Source: Methyloversatilis sp. (GTDB lineage: Bacteria; Pseudomonadota; Gammaproteobacteria; Burkholderiales; Rhodocyclaceae). From it: a stretch of 64,000 bases of DNA. Position 1 is the first letter of the stretch; each line of letters begins with the position of its first letter. Under the pieces are notes generated by a model. It had not been told where the DNA came from, made no database searches, and saw only the letters and a program-made list of their open reading frames with translations. Positions 5,241-34,760 of the stretch are shown here, piece by piece. The position numbers and the translations under genes were made by a program. The stretch covers positions 62,001-126,000 of the forward strand of contig NZ_JAUYNV010000004.1 of assembly GCF_030698125.1 (NCBI RefSeq), read 5' to 3'.

Positions 5241-8200
5241 GCGGCCGCGGCTGGTCGCGCCGCATGTGCTGCTGGGCATCGCGCTGCTGGTGGCGCTGCT
5301 GCTGGTCGTGCTCTATCCGTATCGCGAGCTGGTGCAATACACGCTGAATGCGACCCGCGGCGACACGCTGACGATCGCCTATCTGCGCAATCTGCTGCGC
5401 ACCGATCCGGACAATCCAGAATTGCGCCTGGCGCTGGTGCGACAGGCGCTGGCACGGCGCGACTACGACGGTGCGCGCCTCGCGCTCGCGCCCCTGCTGT
5501 CCGCTACGCCAGCCGGCGCTGCTGGCACCGAAGCGCGCTGGGTCGAATGGACGGTGTTCGAAAGCGAACTGCTGGCCAGCCTGCCCGGATCTGCACGGCG
5601 CGCCGAACTCGAGGCGACCTTGCCCGAAAAGTTGCGCCGCACCGTGCTGATCGATGGCCTGACCGACCAGAACCGCATGGCGCTGGTCGAACGTGCGCTG
5701 TCCTGGGGGCAGGCGGTGCTGGCGCTGGAATTGCTGTCGGGCTTCACGCGCGAAGGTGTGCGGCCCGACGCGCGCATCTATCGCGAGGCGGCGAAGGAAT
5801 TGCTGGGTCATGGCGAATACCAGAACGCCGCGAAAATCCTGCTGCTGCTGCGTGCCGCCGAACCTGATCCCGCCAGCCGCCGCCAGCTCTACCTGCAGGC
5901 CATCCGCATACTGCAGTCGGGCAATCTGCTGGCGCTGGCGCTCGAAACGGCCGAACGCGAACTGGGCGAACTGTCGGGCGACACCGAAGTGCTGTACTAC
6001 CTGGTCACGCTGGCGCGCGCCGCCAACCGTCCCGACGCGGCAGCGCGCTTTGCGCGCTCCATGCTGAAGCTGTCGCTGCAGCAGCAATTGCGCCGCATGC
6101 TGCTGGCGCAGTCGGGTTTCGACGCGCGGCCCTGGCGGGTGGCGACGAATGGCGCGCCCGAGCTGCCGTTCGACGACCGCATCTACACGCTCGGTTTCGA
6201 GGCCTTCCTCGGCAACCGCCAGCTCGACGACGCGCAGCGCGTCGCCGCATCGGCGGTGCGCCAGGCGCCCGACAGCATGATCTGGCGCGAGCGCCTGGCC
6301 ACGTCGTCCGAGTGGTCCGGCAAGCCGCAGGAAGGGCTGGATCAGTGGCTGGTCATCGCCCGGCGCACCGGCCGCGAAGACGCGTGGGACGCAGTGCTGA
6401 GGCTGGCGCCCGGCCTGCTCGACGACGAGGCGCTGCTGGCCGGCCTGCGCCACCGCATTGCGCGCCAGCCCGGCGACAGCCGCCTGCTGAGCGCCATCAT
6501 CGCCACCTATGAACGGCTCGGCAAACCGCGCGAGGGCATCGAATTCCTGCAGGGCGTGGGCGGTGCGAACCCGCCACTGCCGGTACTGGTTGCGCTGGCC
6601 GATCTGGCCGAGCGCGCAGCCGACATCGATCTCGCACTGGCCACGCTGGCGCGCATCGATGCCACCGCCACGCCGGACGTGCGTCGCACATCGCGCCGCG
6701 CGGGCCTGCTGATCTCACGCAATCGCTTCGATGAGGCCATGGCGGCGCTCGAAGCAGTCCGCCCGGCGGCCACCGACGCCGACCGTGATTACTGGCGACT
6801 GTATTCGTCGCTGGCACAGCTACTGCAGGACGACGACCGGGCGCGCGATGCGCTGGCCCGCATCACGCGCTTCGACGATGTCGAGGTGTCCGAACTGCAG
6901 GATCTGGTCGAACTGCTGCTGGATGTCGCACCGCTGCAGGCGGCGCGCGAAGCCGAGCGCGGCTGGCGCCTCCATGGCGATCGCGTGTGGCTGATGCGTA
7001 CGCTGGATCTGTATGTGTTCACCGGCCGGCCGCAGGACATCGGCCGCATCATCGGTGAGCTGTCGGACGCCCAGCGGCGCGATGCGGAACGCCTTCCGCT
7101 GTTCCTGCAGATCCGTGCGCGCTGGCATCAGGCCGCGGGCCGCAAGGCGCAGGCGCTGGACGATTTCAGCGCCGCGCTGGCCATCGACCCGGGCTCGGTC
7201 GACGTGCGCTCGGCGCTGCTGTGGCTGTTCATCGACGGCAACGACACGCTGGCGCTGCGCGAACTGCTGGCGCGCCACGAACAGGCGTGGGCGCGCGAAC
7301 CGCTGCTGCATGACGCGCTGGCTGCGTCCTGGCAGGCGTTGTCGCGCCCGCAGACTGCGCTCGAACGCTATCTGCTGCCGCGCATCGGCGCGCAGCGCGG
7401 CGACTTCCTGTGGATGATGAACGTTGCCGATGCACTGGAACAGAATCAGGAAACCGAGCGCGCCTGGCGGCTGCGCGAACAGCTGTGGCGCGCCGAACGG
7501 CCGAAGCTGCGCGTGCTGGCCGCCGACGACATCGCGCAGCTGCAGCGACTGGCGCGCGTGCGCCTGGCGCGCGCACAGCAGCCGGGTGACGCGTCGCATG
7601 CGCTGCTGCGCGAGGTGCTGCGGCTCGATCGAGCGCCCGATGGCGAATGGCTGCCCGCGGCGAAGGAACTGGCGCTGTCATGGTTCATCGATCATGGCGA
7701 GTACGAAGCGGTGCGCGGCTTTCTGTGGCACCAGTACGGTCGCGCGCTGAACCGTCCGCTGTGGGCCGACATCACGGCCGCGCTCGGTCAGGGCGACGTC
7801 GCGGCGGTCGGCGCGCTGCTCGAGCAGTGGGACGAACGCCTGCCGCGCTACGACCGCGTCAACAGCGCGCGTCTGGTCGGCGACGTGCGGCGTGCCCAGA
7901 CAGCCGCCTTCGAAACGATGGACGCACAGCGCGACGACGCGCCGCTGCACCTGCAACTGAGCGACGCGCTGCTCGATTACGCCGACCGCTTCGACCTCGA
8001 CATCGCACAGCGGGAACTGGCCGGCATCGACGAGCGCCAGCAGTCGGCCACGCTCGACATCGGTGTCGCGCCCGACCTGCGGTTCAGCGTCGAATTCGGC
8101 TCGATCACGCGCGGTCGCGGTGACAACGTCGATTTTTCGGCAGTGCCCGACGAACGCGAATACCTGCTCGGCCGGCTGGCCTGGGTGCACGATGATGGCG

Positions 8201-29446: not shown

Positions 29447-30109
29447 TCACAGCGTCACCAGTTGATGGCGGGCGGCAAAGCTCACCAGTTCGACCGGGTT
29501 CTTGATGTCGAGTTTTTCGAACAATCGCGCCCGATAGGTGCTGATGGTGTTGGCCGACAGCGACAGTTCGCGCGCGATGTCGCCCACGCTGTGGCCGCTG
29601 GCGAGCAGCTTGAGCACCTGCATTTCGCGGTTCGACAGGCTGTCCAGCGGGCTGGCGGGGGTGTCGCTGCGCACGCCGAAAGCCAGCCGCTCGGCCAGTT
29701 CGGGTGTCACGAACAGGCCGCCGCGCGCGACGCGGGCGATGGCGTCGAACAGCTGTTCGGTCGAACAGCCCTTGTTCAGGTATCCGGCTGCGCCGCTCTT
29801 GAGCGCGCGCACGCCGAACTGCGATTCCGGATAGGTGGACAGCATCAGCACCGCGACCTGCGGGAATTCGCTGCGCAGCTGCTTCAGCACGTCGAAGCCG
29901 TCGCGGTCATTCAGCGCGATGTCGAGCAGCACCACGTCGGCACCGTCGGTGCGCAACAGTCGCATCAGGTCCGGGCCGCCAGCCGCTTCGCCGACGACGG
30001 CGATGGCCGGGTTTTCACCGAGGATCTGCGCGATGCCCCGGCGCAACATCAGATGATCGTCAACGATGACGACGCGCGTGGGGCGGGTGGCGTCCATGAA
30101 GGAATTCAT
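29447..30109 (-). CDS. LuxR/NarL-type response regulator
   Basis: A 220-residue two-component regulator. The receiver domain (about 11-128) has the acidic pair in VVIVDDHLMLRRG, phospho-acceptor D63 in VVLLDIALNDRDG and the conserved Lys in GAAGYLNKGC. The C-terminal LuxR helix-turn-helix is LSNREMQVLKLLASGHSVGDIARELSLSANTISTYRARLFEKL. Its start overlaps the stop of the PAS-domain histidine kinase gene by 3 bases, so the kinase is its likely partner. Targets are not known. Confidence 0.92.
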   Translation of the reverse strand: MNSFMDATRPTRVVIVDDHLMLRRGIAQILGENPAIAVVGEAAGGPDLMRLLRTDGADVVLLDIALNDRDGFDVLKQLRSEFPQVAVLMLSTYPESQFGVRALKSGAAGYLNKGCSTEQLFDAIARVARGGLFVTPELAERLAFGVRSDTPASPLDSLSNREMQVLKLLASGHSVGDIARELSLSANTISTYRARLFEKLDIKNPVELVSFAARHQLVTL

Positions 30110-31293
30110 CGGGTCGAATCCGGTACGCGCAGCGTGACCGTCGTGCCGGCGCCCGGTGCGCTGTCGATCTGCAATTCGCCGCCCAGCACGCGGGTGCGTT
30201 CGTACATGCCGAGCAGGCCGAACGAGGTGGGCTGTGCCGGCACCTGCATGCCGCGACCGTTGTCGCAGATGCGCAATTCGATGTGGCTGGCCGCGCCGGT
30301 CACCTCCACCTGCACTTCGGTGGCGCCAGCGTGACGCGCGATATTGGTCAGCACTTCCTGTACGACGCGATACACCGCCACTTCGGCGCTGCGCCCGAGC
30401 CGGCGCTCCGGCCCGGCGTCAGGCACGTGCAGCGTGCAGCGCACGCCGCTGCGCGCCTGCATTTCTTGCAACTGCCACTCGATCGCCGCCCACAGGCCGA
30501 GGTGGTCGAGCACGCCGGGCCGCAGGTCGGTCAGGATGCGCCGCACCGCGCCCAGCGCCTGCCGGGTCACGCCGACCATGTCGTCGAATTTGCGTTCGAG
30601 CGTGTCGTCGCGCGCCAACTTGGCGCGCAGCCAGTTCAGGTCGAACTGCAGCGCGGTCAGCGACGCGCCCAGTTCGTCGTGGATTTCGCGTGCGATGTGG
30701 GCGCGCTCGTCCTCGCGCACCTGCTGCAGGTGCGCCGACAGCCGTTGCAGCGCGCCGTGCGATTGCTGCAGCCGTGCGTTGGCCTGTGACAGCGCGGCGG
30801 TGCGTTCCGACACGCGCCGTTCCAGTTCGGCATGATTGGCGCGCAGCACCGCCTCGGCCTGCTTGCGTTCGCTGATGTCGGCGAAGGTGACCACGGCGCC
30901 GACAATCTGGCCGGCGTCGCGGATCGGGTAGGACGTGTACTCGGCCGGAAAGGCGCTGCCGTCGCGCCGCCACAGCACTTCGGATTCGACCCGCACGCCG
31001 CGCCCTTCCTGGAAGGCACGGAAGATCGGACAGTCCTCGACCTCGTAACAGCGGCCGTCGGAATGCGCGTGGTGGATCAGGTAGTGCATGTTGCGGCCGA
31101 GCACTTCGTCGGCGTCGAAACCGATCAGTTCGGCGCCGGCGCGATTGATGAAGATGCAGCGGCCACGCTGGTCGATGCCGTAGATCCCTTCGCCGGCCGA
31201 CTCCAGCAACATTTCGAGCTGGTGCCGCCAGGCAGCGTGATGCGACAGGTGGTGGAGGTTGGCAAACACGGTGCGCACGTCGAAGCGATGCAC
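30106..31293 (-). CDS. PAS-domain sensor histidine kinase, NarX/DegS type
   Basis: Up to 395 residues from GTG 31293, with no membrane segment, so a cytoplasmic sensor. A PAS domain (about 25-145) includes EGIYGIDQRGRCIFINRAGAELIG and a PAC segment. A coiled coil (about 145-195) leads into a HisKA_3 domain with H205 in EDERAHIAREIHDELGASL, then an HATPase with ICDNGRGM and FGLLGMYERTRVLGG. It phosphorylates the overlapping LuxR regulator, by inference. The start is unsure: a sigma-54 promoter at 31300-31315 would start transcription near 31290, so GTG 31278, GTG 31269 or ATG 31212 are alternatives. No heme or other cofactor motif was identified in the PAS domain. Confidence 0.88.
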   Translation of the reverse strand: MHRFDVRTVFANLHHLSHHAAWRHQLEMLLESAGEGIYGIDQRGRCIFINRAGAELIGFDADEVLGRNMHYLIHHAHSDGRCYEVEDCPIFRAFQEGRGVRVESEVLWRRDGSAFPAEYTSYPIRDAGQIVGAVVTFADISERKQAEAVLRANHAELERRVSERTAALSQANARLQQSHGALQRLSAHLQQVREDERAHIAREIHDELGASLTALQFDLNWLRAKLARDDTLERKFDDMVGVTRQALGAVRRILTDLRPGVLDHLGLWAAIEWQLQEMQARSGVRCTLHVPDAGPERRLGRSAEVAVYRVVQEVLTNIARHAGATEVQVEVTGAASHIELRICDNGRGMQVPAQPTSFGLLGMYERTRVLGGELQIDSAPGAGTTVTLRVPDSTR

Positions 31294-31406: not shown

Positions 31407-32819
31407 TCAGGCAGGCGCGTCGCGCAGCCGCAGTGCGCCGTCGGTGTCGCCGGCTTCGATCAGCCCCAGTTCTTCATAGCGGCGCAACTTGCGCCACAGC
31501 GACACGCGGTCGATGCCGAGCAGGCGCGCTGCCATGGCGCGGTTGCCGCCGACTTCGGCCAGCACGTCGAGGATGTGCGAGCGCTCGACGCTTTCCAGCG
31601 TGCGGATTTCGCCACCCGTGCGGCTGCCCGCATCGCGATGAACCGCCGACGCGGCAAATCCGGCCGGCAGGTCCGCCTCGCCCAGCATGCTGCCGCTGGC
31701 CAGTGCCACGCCGCGTTCGATCAGGTTTTCAAGCTCGCGCACATTACCCGGGTAGTCGTAGGCGCAAAGCTTCTGCATCGCCGACGGCGCGATGGCGGTG
31801 ACCGGCTTGCCCATCGCCAGTGCGGCGCGTCGCAGGAACTGTTGCGCCAGCAGCGGAATGTCTTCGCGCCGGGCACGCAACGGCGGCAACTGCAGCGTGA
31901 CCACATTGAGCCGGAAGTAGATGTCCTGCCGGAACGTGCCGGCTTCGACCGCACTGCGCGGTTCGCGATTGGTGGCCGCGAGAAAACGCACGTCGGCACG
32001 CACCGGCTCGGTGCCGCCGACCCGCATGTATTCCCGCTCCTGCAACAGTCGCAGCAGCTTGACCTGCATCGCCGCAGACATTTCGGTTACTTCGTCGAGA
32101 AACAGCGTACCGCACTGCGCCGCCTCGACCAGGCCGCCGCGCGATTGCTGGGCGCCTGTATAGGCGCCCTTTTCGTGACCGAACAGTTCGTTGGCCAGCA
32201 GGTCTTCGCTCAGCGCGCCGCAATTGATCGCCACGAAAGGCCCGCCGGCGCGTCGACTGTGCGCGTGCAGGTGGCGCGCCAGCAATTCCTTGCCGGTACC
32301 TGTTTCGCCGACGATGAGCACGTTGCAATCGGTCGGCGCCACGCCGCGCGCGATGTCGAGAATGGCGCGCATGCCGCCGTCGCGCGTGATGATGCGTTCT
32401 TCGGCGGCCTGCTCGACCAACTGGCGCAAACGGTGGTTTTCGGCGCGCAACTGCGCCTTGTCGGCCGCCTCGCGCACCAGCTTGCGCACCTCGCCCAGCC
32501 GGAATGGCTTGGAAATGTAATAGAAGGCGCCGGTGCGCATTGCCTCGACCGCCGATTCGGTGGTCGCAAAGCCGGTCACCACGAGCACTTCCATGTCGGG
32601 CCAGGCCTCGCGCGCGCGGCGCAACAGATCGAGGCCATCCATGCCGGGCATGCGCACGTCGGTCAGCATGACCTCGAAGTCGCGCGCGCGCAGCAGCGCC
32701 AGTGCGCTGTCGCCGTTGTCGGCGGTCGTGACATCGAAGCCGTCGCGCCGCAGGGCAGTGGCCAGCCCCTCGCGGGCAACCGCCTCGTCATCGACCAGCA
32801 GTACGCGTGCTCCACTCAT
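31407..32819 (-). CDS. NtrC-family sigma-54-dependent response regulator
   Basis: A 470-residue three-domain activator. The receiver (about 5-118) has phospho-acceptor D54 in VMLTDVRMPGMDG and K104 in YISKPF. The AAA+ domain (about 143-370) has Walker A GETGTGKE (171-178), the sigma-54 contact loop GAYTGA (218-223), Walker B GTLFLDEV and the R-finger region. The Fis-type helix-turn-helix near the C-terminus is GGNRAMAARLLGIDRVSLWRKLRRY. Its ATG overlaps the stop of the histidine kinase gene upstream by 4 bases, so the pair is a two-component system. Two -24/-12 promoters flank this gene pair and are its obvious candidate targets. Confidence 0.95.
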   Translation of the reverse strand: MSGARVLLVDDEAVAREGLATALRRDGFDVTTADNGDSALALLRARDFEVMLTDVRMPGMDGLDLLRRAREAWPDMEVLVVTGFATTESAVEAMRTGAFYYISKPFRLGEVRKLVREAADKAQLRAENHRLRQLVEQAAEERIITRDGGMRAILDIARGVAPTDCNVLIVGETGTGKELLARHLHAHSRRAGGPFVAINCGALSEDLLANELFGHEKGAYTGAQQSRGGLVEAAQCGTLFLDEVTEMSAAMQVKLLRLLQEREYMRVGGTEPVRADVRFLAATNREPRSAVEAGTFRQDIYFRLNVVTLQLPPLRARREDIPLLAQQFLRRAALAMGKPVTAIAPSAMQKLCAYDYPGNVRELENLIERGVALASGSMLGEADLPAGFAASAVHRDAGSRTGGEIRTLESVERSHILDVLAEVGGNRAMAARLLGIDRVSLWRKLRRYEELGLIEAGDTDGALRLRDAPA

Positions 32820-34252
32820 GATGTTTCCTCCGCTGGTATCCAGACCGTGACGCAGGCGCCGCCGTCCGGTTCGAGAGCGATGCTGACCCGGCCGCCGTGT
32901 TCGGCCGCGATTTCATGCACCACGAACAGCCCGAGCCCGGAGCCCTTGCCGACCGGTTTGGTCGTGAAGAAAGGGTCGAACACGCGCTGCAGATTGCCCG
33001 GCGCAATGCCGGGGCCGTTGTCGCACACTTCGATCGCCGTGCCGCCGTCGCGCTGCATGCCGCTGACCACGATGTGGGGCGTGGTCGCGGTTTCGTCGCA
33101 GGCTTCGAGCGCATTGCGGATCAGGTTGAGCAGCGCCTGCTGGATGCGCTGGCCGTCGGCGTGGATTTCCAGCGCCGGGTCGATGTGCAGCGTGACGGCG
33201 TCGCCGGCGTCCGGCTGTTCGGCGCGCAGCAGCGCGATGGTTTCCTCGACCAGTGGCCGCAGTGGCTGGCGCACCAGCGCGAAGTGGCTGTCGCGCGCGA
33301 AGGCGAGCAGCGTGCGCACGATGCGCTGGGCGCGCTGCACCTGATCGTCGATCTGTTCGACAAAGGCATTGAGCGGGGTGGCGTCGCTCCGCTCGGGTTC
33401 TTCGAGCAGCAGCTGGGCGTTGAGCGAAATATTGGACAGCGGGTTGTTCAGCTCGTGTGCCACGCCGGACAGCATGGTGCCCAGCGAGGCCAGCCGCGCG
33501 GTGCGCAGTACGGCCAGCTGGCGTTCTTCGAGGTCGCCGAGCGCCCGATTGAAGGCGTCGACCAGCGCCGCGATCTCGTCGTCGTGGTCGCGCGGCGTCA
33601 GGCGCGCCAGATTGCCGGTACCGACCCGCGCCAGATCGCTTTCGACCTCGCGCAGCGGTACCACGACGCGCCGTGTCACCAGCTGGCCAATGCCCAGTAC
33701 CAGCACGATGGCGGCGAACATGATCACGTACAGCCGCGATTCCTGACCGGTCAGCGCGCTGCGCATGGCTTCGCGCGCCTGGTCGGACAGGCGTTCGCTG
33801 CTGTCGAACACCTGTTTGCCGACGGCCTCCATGCGCTCTTCCAGCGGCGAAATCGGGTCGGTCGGCTTGATGCGGCGCTGCAGGCGGTCGTCCAGCAGGT
33901 CGCGCCAGTCAGTCAGCGACTGCTCAAGTTCGTCGAGCGCAAAGCCGGGTGCGGCGCGCTGCATCAGCGGGCGGTCGCGCCCGATCAGCGCCAGCGCCTC
34001 TTCCGCCTTGCTCACTGCCGCCTTCAGTTCCGATGGTTTGCGGAACAGCAGGTAATTCTTCTCCAGCCGGCGCGCCTCGCGCACCACATCGTGCATGCGC
34101 GTGACCTTGTATTCGTCGTCGACGTGCGACAGCAGGCCGCGCACCTGTTCGAGTGCTGCGAACACCAGCAGCACGAACAGGCCGCCGAGCACGATGTAGC
34201 CGAGCAGGATCTTGCCGTGCAGCGATCGGGGCAACAGTTTCATCAATTGCAT
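32816..34252 (-). CDS. Membrane sensor histidine kinase, partner of the NtrC-type regulator
   Basis: About 478 residues from ATG 34252. Membrane segment 1 (about 14-34), a helical periplasmic domain (about 35-172, with REARRLEKNYLLFRKPSEL) like four-helix sensor bundles, membrane segment 2 (about 175-192), and a HAMP domain (to about 245). HisKA has H266 in MLSGVAHELNNPLSNIS. The HATPase domain has LLNLIRNALEA, CDNGPGIAP and GKGSGLGLFVVHEIAAEHGG. The ligand is not evident. Start is uncertain: ATG 34243 and ATG 34312 are in frame and none has a clear ribosome site. The gene is divergent from a sigma-54 promoter 190 bp away. Confidence 0.9.
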   Translation of the reverse strand: MQLMKLLPRSLHGKILLGYIVLGGLFVLLVFAALEQVRGLLSHVDDEYKVTRMHDVVREARRLEKNYLLFRKPSELKAAVSKAEEALALIGRDRPLMQRAAPGFALDELEQSLTDWRDLLDDRLQRRIKPTDPISPLEERMEAVGKQVFDSSERLSDQAREAMRSALTGQESRLYVIMFAAIVLVLGIGQLVTRRVVVPLREVESDLARVGTGNLARLTPRDHDDEIAALVDAFNRALGDLEERQLAVLRTARLASLGTMLSGVAHELNNPLSNISLNAQLLLEEPERSDATPLNAFVEQIDDQVQRAQRIVRTLLAFARDSHFALVRQPLRPLVEETIALLRAEQPDAGDAVTLHIDPALEIHADGQRIQQALLNLIRNALEACDETATTPHIVVSGMQRDGGTAIEVCDNGPGIAPGNLQRVFDPFFTTKPVGKGSGLGLFVVHEIAAEHGGRVSIALEPDGGACVTVWIPAEETS

Positions 34253-34442
34253 GTTGAAACGTTGCGTTGCGGATTTCAACGGTAATGCGAACGGCGCATC
34301 GGTCAGTTTCATGCGGGTTTTCGTCGGTCGGACAGGCATGAATAGCCCGGGCCGCTGCATTGTGCAACGTCTGCTGAATGCGAAAACCGGGGCGGGATGA
34401 GAGAACATAATGAAATCAGAGACTTGAGATATTTTATTGGAC

Positions 34443-34458
34443 TGGCACATCCCCTGCT
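34443..34458 (+). promoter_or_regulatory. Sigma-54 promoter of the small RNA
   Basis: TGGCACATCCCCTGCT: TGGCAC at -24, GC at -12 with exactly ten bases between GG and GC, and TGCT matching the TGCW end of the consensus. Predicted start about 34469. No convincing protein-coding start follows before a strong terminator at 34572-34605. Confidence 0.7.
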
Positions 34459-34468
34459 AGAACTTCCG

Positions 34469-34605
34469 TGCCAGCTCTGTGGCCACCGCCCGACGGCTCC
34501 TCGGACGGTGGCCGGTGGCAGGGGGCAATGGGGAGGCCGGTTTGCCAGCGGACTGAACCGGTTCTTTTGTGCGGCTCGCGACTCCTTCGCGAGCCGTTTT
34601 TCTTT
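34469..34605 (+). ncRNA. Probable sigma-54-dependent small regulatory RNA
   Basis: About 137 nt between a -24/-12 promoter and a Rho-independent terminator. Predicted folds: TGCCA (34469-34473) with TGGCA (34516-34520) outside GGCCACCG (34481-34488) with CGGTGGCC (34506-34513); then CCGGTT with AACCGG around 34537-34560; then the terminator. The loop of the first hairpin has CTCCTC (34497-34502) and the terminator loop is CTCCT (34582-34586), both complementary to AGGAG ribosome sites. GGA triplets at 34503, 34532 and 34550 could alternatively bind CsrA. No convincing ORF with a ribosome site lies inside. I do not recognise it as a known RNA family. The rest of the 34253-34760 gap holds the two promoter elements and a GCTCCGG/CCGGAGC inverted repeat at 34651-34679 before ccmA. 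Confidence 0.65.
34572..34605 (+). terminator. Rho-independent terminator of the small RNA
   Basis: A perfect 10-bp stem, CGGCTCGCGA (34572-34581) with TCGCGAGCCG (34587-34596), loop CTCCT, followed by TTTTTCTTT. It is one of the two best intrinsic terminators in the window. Confidence 0.9.
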
Positions 34606-34760
34606 GTGTCGTTTCCGTCCCTTTACTGCTTTCGCGATTCGTCCTGCCTCGCTCCGGGCCCGCGACGCGATGCCGGAGCCCCTGCCCGCTCACATCACCA
34701 GACCTTCGCGCACCGGTTTAACGGATAATTCGCGGCCGCCCACCCGTCGCGGCGCCGTTC

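Follow-up and report, generated by a model that had tools for sequence, protein, structure and literature searches.

The stretch at 34443-34605 of the window (the whole 64,000 nucleotides of Methyloversatilis DNA analyzed here, part of a 4.2-Mb draft genome) is, judged by its sequence, a real sigma-54-type small RNA (sRNA) gene. It lies between a divergent kinase gene and ccmA and consists of an exact -24/-12 site followed by a stretch of three hairpins. We consider it probable that this is a stand-alone gene under the control of the neighboring kinase and NtrC-type regulator, with an RNA that acts by Hfq-aided pairing through a segment of hairpin 1. The part of this model that is read directly from the DNA comprises the promoter, the upstream palindrome, an IHF-like site, the fold, covariation in hairpin 1, conservation, the occurrence of the control pattern at a single site and the presence of hfq. 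A preliminary description of this DNA had proposed an RNA of about 137 nt with a -24/-12 promoter and a terminator, placed beside an NtrC-type two-component system in a layout like that of cbrAB-crcZ without homology to CrcZ; its coordinates and motifs are correct and the layout is supported by the sequence. It had counted two hairpins, and the fold shows three: hairpin 1 and the terminator are present as described, with hairpin 2 between them (Table 1).

Table 1. Coordinates of the sRNA gene, its putative control elements and its neighbors in the window
Feature	Position	Strand	Basis or remark
NtrC-type response regulator, proposed activator	31407..32819	-	receiver, Sigma54_activat, Fis-type HTH
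Histidine kinase (HAMP, HisKA, HATPase_c)	32816..34252	-	Pfam domains
Degenerate second palindrome TTGCATGTTGAAAC at kinase start	34247..34260	.	intact in 7/12 homologues
Upstream palindrome CGCTGCATTGTGCAACG, putative site of adjacent NtrC-type regulator	34353..34369	.	conserved in 12/12
IHF-like site AATCAGAGACTTG, between palindrome and promoter	34414..34426	.	WATCARN4TTR in 11/12
Sigma-54 (-24/-12) promoter	34443..34458	+	12/16 positions invariant across 12 homologues
Non-coding sRNA, ~137 nt	34469..34605	+	fold, alignment; start 34468-34470 predicted from promoter
Hairpin 1, covarying stem	34469..34527	+	7 pairs changed on both sides
Invariant GGCUCCUCG, proposed anti-SD-type pairing seed	34495..34503	+	identical in 12/12
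Conserved AAUGGGGAGGCCGG, hairpin-2 start	34527..34540	+	12/14 positions invariant at 34528-34541
Hairpin 2, AGCGGAC in loop, U-rich 3' side (UUCUUUU)	34531..34568	+	fold and alignment
Intrinsic terminator and U tract	34571..34605	+	loop CUCCU not conserved
GATAAT element before ccmA, separate from sRNA	34724..34729	+	GATAAT in 12/12

The promoter of the preliminary description is borne out, as TGGCACATCCCCTGCT at 34443-34458 is an exact fit to TGGCACN5YTGCW. Behind it lies a non-coding, terminated stretch, the arrangement by which sRNAs of the sigma-54/NtrC type are recognized at the level of sequence. Matches to the -24/-12 pattern with at most one mismatch are frequent in the window (16 vs. 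6.0 expected), which would favor a chance meeting of promoter- and terminator-like sequence with no RNA gene behind it. We give that explanation almost no credence in view of the conservation, the covariation and the single occurrence of the palindrome-promoter pair set out below. Exact matches number three, and the two at 6812 and 47217 fall within long open frames.

With a 181-base query the locus was found in 12 of the 13 genomes of the genus; in the thirteenth the kinase match stops at a contig end, and the RNA locus is therefore not assembled there. All 12 genomes with an assembled locus keep both the promoter and the sRNA. The RNA itself appears confined to Methyloversatilis in the genomes searched. 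Searched against 150 family genomes, the DNA query returned four members of the genus together with matches of 20 and 29 bases (E 0.005 and 0.008), and a covariance model built from the 12 Methyloversatilis sequences and searched against 395 family genomes gave 12 strong matches (E 1e-28 or better), all within the genus. Weak matches to this model were found in 20 other genomes (E 2e-4 to 0.07); the 18 of these 20 loci that were inspected have no sigma-54 site on the match strand and resemble unrelated terminators or coding DNA, and they were rejected. An Rfam search, also suggested in the preliminary description, matched no family to the sRNA region at gathering thresholds; the best permissive match, sX14, was rejected at 22 bits against a gathering threshold of 80. 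A literature search found no report of this sRNA. The gene is probably a further example of the sRNAs regulated by sigma-54 and NtrC-type proteins, apparently one not described before.

The RNA at 34469-34605 folds at -68.9 kcal/mol (z -2.3), and five further homologues folded singly have z values of -3.0 to -4.9 (six of the 12 sequences were folded in all). Across the 12 aligned sRNAs, 11 of them distinct, 99.6% of cells pair. Compensatory changes, which the preliminary description had named as a test of the stems, are found at seven pairs and in 23 cells, all within hairpin 1; all 500 shuffles stay below the observed value on each of the five measures used, and slid controls give at most four pairs and eight cells. 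Variation in hairpin 2 and in the terminator is too slight for a covariation test. The 11-bp terminator stem spans 34571-34597 and is followed by TTTTTCTTT.

Within the covarying hairpin, GGCUCCUCG makes up most of the loop together with its closing pairs (one homologue is aligned here with an internal gap), and the stem arms vary around it, with 8/25 and 4/22 invariant positions. The CUCCUC that it contains occupies 34497-34502, its first four bases lying in the 7-nt loop and its last two in the short closing stem. Two anti-Shine-Dalgarno (anti-SD) loops had been proposed. The segment in hairpin 1 is invariant in all 12 homologues and stands; CUCCU in the terminator loop (34582-34586 in the window) occurs in only 5/12, with GCAA in 6/12 and GAAA in 1/12, and the second anti-SD loop is thus a peculiarity of one species group. 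A pyrimidine loop, CCUCCUCCC, on more variable stems is described for the SmelA075/SmelA099 sRNAs of Rhizobiales (PMC3927594), whose three or four hairpin loops each have the anti-SD motif; in contrast, only one Methyloversatilis hairpin keeps such a motif, as GGCUCCUCG. As a separate observation, pairing would be possible between the invariant CUCCUC and the near-invariant GGGGAGG at 34530-34536, in a loop-to-strand contact or in a dimer; the two elements vary too little for a covariation test of it.

Two readings other than a stand-alone non-coding RNA bear on this stretch. The start of ccmA comes next on the same strand at all 12 genus loci, by alignment, as would suit a leader or attenuator of the ccm operon in which a regulated terminator allows read-through into ccmA. 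This is improbable, since none of the 85 positions past the terminator is invariant, ccmA has a GATAAT element of its own in 12/12, promoters of this kind point at different genes in other genera, and all six minimum-energy folds that were computed contain the terminator stem. That separate GATAAT past the terminator also speaks against the regulation of ccm by the sRNA that had been suggested. In the second reading the stretch would be a short coding gene or a dual-function RNA, which would fit the invariant AUG in AAUGGGGAGG and the sister two-component systems in which a promoter at the same position drives small open frames. We regard this as very improbable because the frames that begin at the invariant AUG have no stop codon within the RNA and vary with the species group, and no open frame is common to the 12 RNAs.

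Upstream of the promoter the window reads CGCTGCAN3TGCAACG, and TGCAN3TGCAAC is kept in 12/12 homologues at a near-fixed distance from the promoter, its centre about 108 bp before the predicted sRNA start. The second palindrome lies 108 bp farther upstream than the first and is degenerate in the window. Between palindrome and promoter stands a site that we call IHF-like because it fits WATCARN4TTR, which we take to be the IHF consensus; it too keeps a near-fixed distance upstream of the promoter across homologues, and the twelfth homologue has one mismatch, by eye. The control elements themselves are conserved and the spacers between them hold few invariant positions. Neither the palindromes nor the IHF-like site figured in the preliminary description. 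The palindrome-spacer-promoter pattern occurs exactly once per genome in 12/13 genus genomes, with a control of 0, and at the stringency used the sRNA locus is by its sequence the sole place in each genome where palindrome and promoter stand together. The sRNA therefore looks like the dedicated output of the regulator, and it is probably the dedicated or main output of the adjacent kinase/NtrC-type pair. A looser palindrome-promoter pattern, which is noisy and fails to pick up the CTGCA-type sites of the genus itself, found 20 places in 19 of 150 genomes vs. 3 in the control; five of the 20 are kinase loci that were also found separately.

The kinase frame as listed starts at 34450, which is probably too far upstream; a start at 34252 is one possibility. 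Among protein models the regulator comes closest to AtoC, NtrC, and ZraR, but it reaches the cut-off of no equivalog in the best 25 and is therefore not filed as LuxO, CbrB, GlrR, or NtrC; its relatives of solved structure belong to the NtrC family, LuxO being the sixth. Directly downstream of this pair, at 29447-31293 on the minus strand, is a second two-component system with a PAS/HisKA_3 kinase and a LuxR-type regulator, for which the best model, UvrY/SirA/GacA, gives 164 bits vs. a cut-off of 280.

In the GlrR-GlmY system of enterobacteria a sigma-54 sRNA is likewise linked to an NtrC-type system, and the Qrr family of Vibrio is included in Rfam. The Methyloversatilis locus differs from the first in that its sRNA has no Rfam match and its regulator scores 346.9 bits vs. 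the GlrR cut-off of 763. It resembles LuxO-Qrr in that the gene of an NtrC-family regulator adjoins a sigma-54 sRNA. The LuxO site TTGCAW3TGCAA lies ~89-119 bp before the qrr starts, with qrr1 adjoining luxO (PMC11443567), and ttgcaaaatgcaa is found at qrr1 (PMC10328515). The TGCAN3TGCAAC of Methyloversatilis is similar, as is GTTGCN5GCAAC in other genera. Compared with TTGCAW3TGCAA, the left half of the promoter-proximal copy reads CTGCA or ATGCA (CTGCA in the window), whereas TTGCAN3TGCAAC is found in the distal copy of 7/12 homologues and several sites in other genera keep TTGCA. Unlike in the Qrr system, there is no Rfam match, one sRNA gene per genome and a kinase encoded beside the regulator, which scores 319.7 bits against a LuxO cut-off of 800. 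The CbrAB system of Pseudomonas activates the sigma-54 sRNAs CrcZ/CrcY, with IHF between the activator site and the promoter (PMC6296734), and our locus shares with it the NtrC-type system, the IHF-like site and the sigma-54 sRNA promoter. However, CrcZ is an A-rich Hfq decoy of 407 nt with six A-rich stretches (PMC4063720), whereas the Methyloversatilis RNA has ~137 nt, 10-16% A and no ARN runs; CbrA has a transporter part (PMC13022988), whereas Pfam shows only HAMP, HisKA, and HATPase in the Methyloversatilis kinase, with no transporter part. The sRNA gene is built like LuxO/Qrr and CbrB/CrcZ and, by Rfam, model scores, and RNA make-up, is a member of neither.

Transcription of the sRNA, binding of the regulator and of Hfq, and pairing by the loop are the steps that we infer from these elements. 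A signal at the adjacent kinase would lead to phosphorylation of the adjacent NtrC-type regulator, which would then bind the palindrome(s) TGCAN3TGCAAC upstream of the sRNA, with IHF bending the DNA between palindrome and promoter. The sigma-54 polymerase at 34443 would thereby be activated to make the ~137-nt RNA of hairpin 1, hairpin 2, and terminator. Hfq would engage the U-rich stretch and the U tail, and the invariant GGCUCCUCG would base-pair, probably at ribosome sites, with a limited set of target mRNAs. The gene hfq is present in 13/13 genus genomes by a family search, and the sRNA has the UUUUUCUUU tail and the UUCUUUU stretch by which Hfq-dependent sRNAs are recognized; a tblastn search for csrA and hfq in part of the genomic DNA had given no match before hfq was found in this way.

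Pairing through the hairpin-1 loop is likely from the sequence, and the RNA more likely has a few specific targets than represses "many mRNAs," with ccm and carbon or nitrogen genes as possible examples, as the preliminary description had supposed. The pattern CGAGGAGCCN{0,12}ATG has 52 sites in the 13 genomes vs. 21 for the control. These are exact 9-base complements of the loop; 30 of the 52 were read, and no start region among the 30 was common to both species groups. Complement sites that recur lie inside one coding frame, presumably MreB-like sequence, or only within one species group, and are not taken as targets. In one species group a 276-aa open frame has the complete 9-base loop complement at its start region; this frame was read in two genomes, at L129 (G153) and L142 (G156), and the matched string is also found at G000:C31:36957 and in G157. 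Two genomes of that group also have a complement site in another open frame. Duplexes were also scored for 116 ortholog pairs, drawn from two genomes (1.6 Mb of the first, 0.4 Mb of the second) and including some spurious frames. In both genomes, only 12 of the 116 start regions reach -14 kcal/mol, a count exceeded by 28 of 30 shuffled loops, and this want of enrichment counts against wide pairing at ribosome sites. The claim of broad repression therefore finds no conserved target in the 30/52 sites and 116 pairs, which cover a minor share of the genes.

It is also possible, though unlikely, that the same sigma-54 sRNA works by holding a protein, as a CsrA-type sponge or a CrcZ-like Hfq decoy, and not by pairing. 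That no pairing target emerged among the 116 ortholog pairs would suit such a role, as would the two GGA triplets (in GGGGAGG and AGCGGAC) that are invariant in 12/12 RNAs, the presence of GCGGACAACNAGGAGAUUC in the RNAs of two other genera (g31 and g59) and an RNA-like stretch at locus L030 with seven GGA. However, sponges of the CsrB/RsmY type have many ANGGA motifs in their loops, whereas each of the 12 Methyloversatilis RNAs has only 2-3 GGA and no ANGGA; a decoy for Hfq is in turn opposed by an A content of 10-16% and the absence of any run of three or more ARN triplets in 12/12. On motif content both roles are less likely than Hfq-aided pairing, and CsrA binding at GGA triplets, the alternative raised in the preliminary description, is weak.

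Related kinases in other genera extend the comparison. Those of g31, g43, g53, and g59 form one clade of 20 rows with Methyloversatilis (support 100/100) in a tree of 34 rows, six from the genus, in which long branches meet according to the tool's own warning. The regulator helix GIDRVSLWRKL is found in 14/15 clade loci as far as each extends (L028 is cut inside the helix and L026 just past it, and the fifteenth locus, L020, ends before the regulator). Every kinase-bearing genome of g31 (2/2), g59 (3/3), and g43 (2/2) has a TGGCACN5NTGCT promoter pointing away from the kinase, followed by ~70-85 nt and a terminator, with an RNA sequence that differs from that of Methyloversatilis; at L024 the scan stopped at an inner T run, so that its 56-nt length is too short. 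Two g43 genomes of the 395, G136 and G174, gave no kinase match at 1e-95. The Methyloversatilis covariance model matched none of the g31, g43, and g59 RNAs. A segment common to g31 and g59, GCGGACAACNAGGAGATTC, occurs in 5/395 genomes, at one site each and always beside a kinase of this clade. A pyrimidine-rich 5' loop is seen in g59 (UUCUUCUCGG, GAUCCUCGG) and in one genome of g43 (ACUUCCUCGGG), and not clearly in g31. None of the seven g53 loci has a TGGCAY-type promoter within ~600 bases past the palindrome at the kinase start; one palindrome is kept there, and two loci have a poor TGGCGC...CGC match. The lack of a comparable RNA beside the g53 kinase, the sequence differences between genera and the restriction of pyrimidine-rich loops to some of them weigh against our model. 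The clade loci outside Methyloversatilis (L019-L028 and L159-L162) hold differing short RNAs in three genera.

Outside this clade, 10 of 14 kinases face a sigma-54-type promoter and an eleventh, L042, does so by another pattern; mostly small or transporter-linked open frames follow the promoter, by reading. The sister systems L029 and L031-L039 mostly have a sigma-54-type promoter and like palindromes, with small open frames and a recurring small-protein family; the transporter at L029, L031, L035, and L039 we take from its translated sequence to be SulP-like. At L030 (g5), also outside the clade, the RNA-like terminated stretch extends ~129 nt past the promoter, and with two of its seven GGA in ANGGA it may be a CsrA-type sponge.

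Overall, the likely reading for Methyloversatilis may have a wider counterpart, which we put forward only tentatively: a fixed switch of palindromes, IHF, and -24/-12 promoter that has a short RNA as its only direct output, an RNA rebuilt in each genus, with a site that has converged on that of LuxO/Qrr to give a Qrr-like circuit outside the vibrios. Apart from this, Methyloversatilis and related genera gain a candidate circuit of the CrcZ/Qrr kind, in which the one recognizable promoter site of a sensor pair stands before an sRNA. As the promoter is kept while the RNA changes across genera, the turnover of sRNAs under one regulator becomes directly testable.
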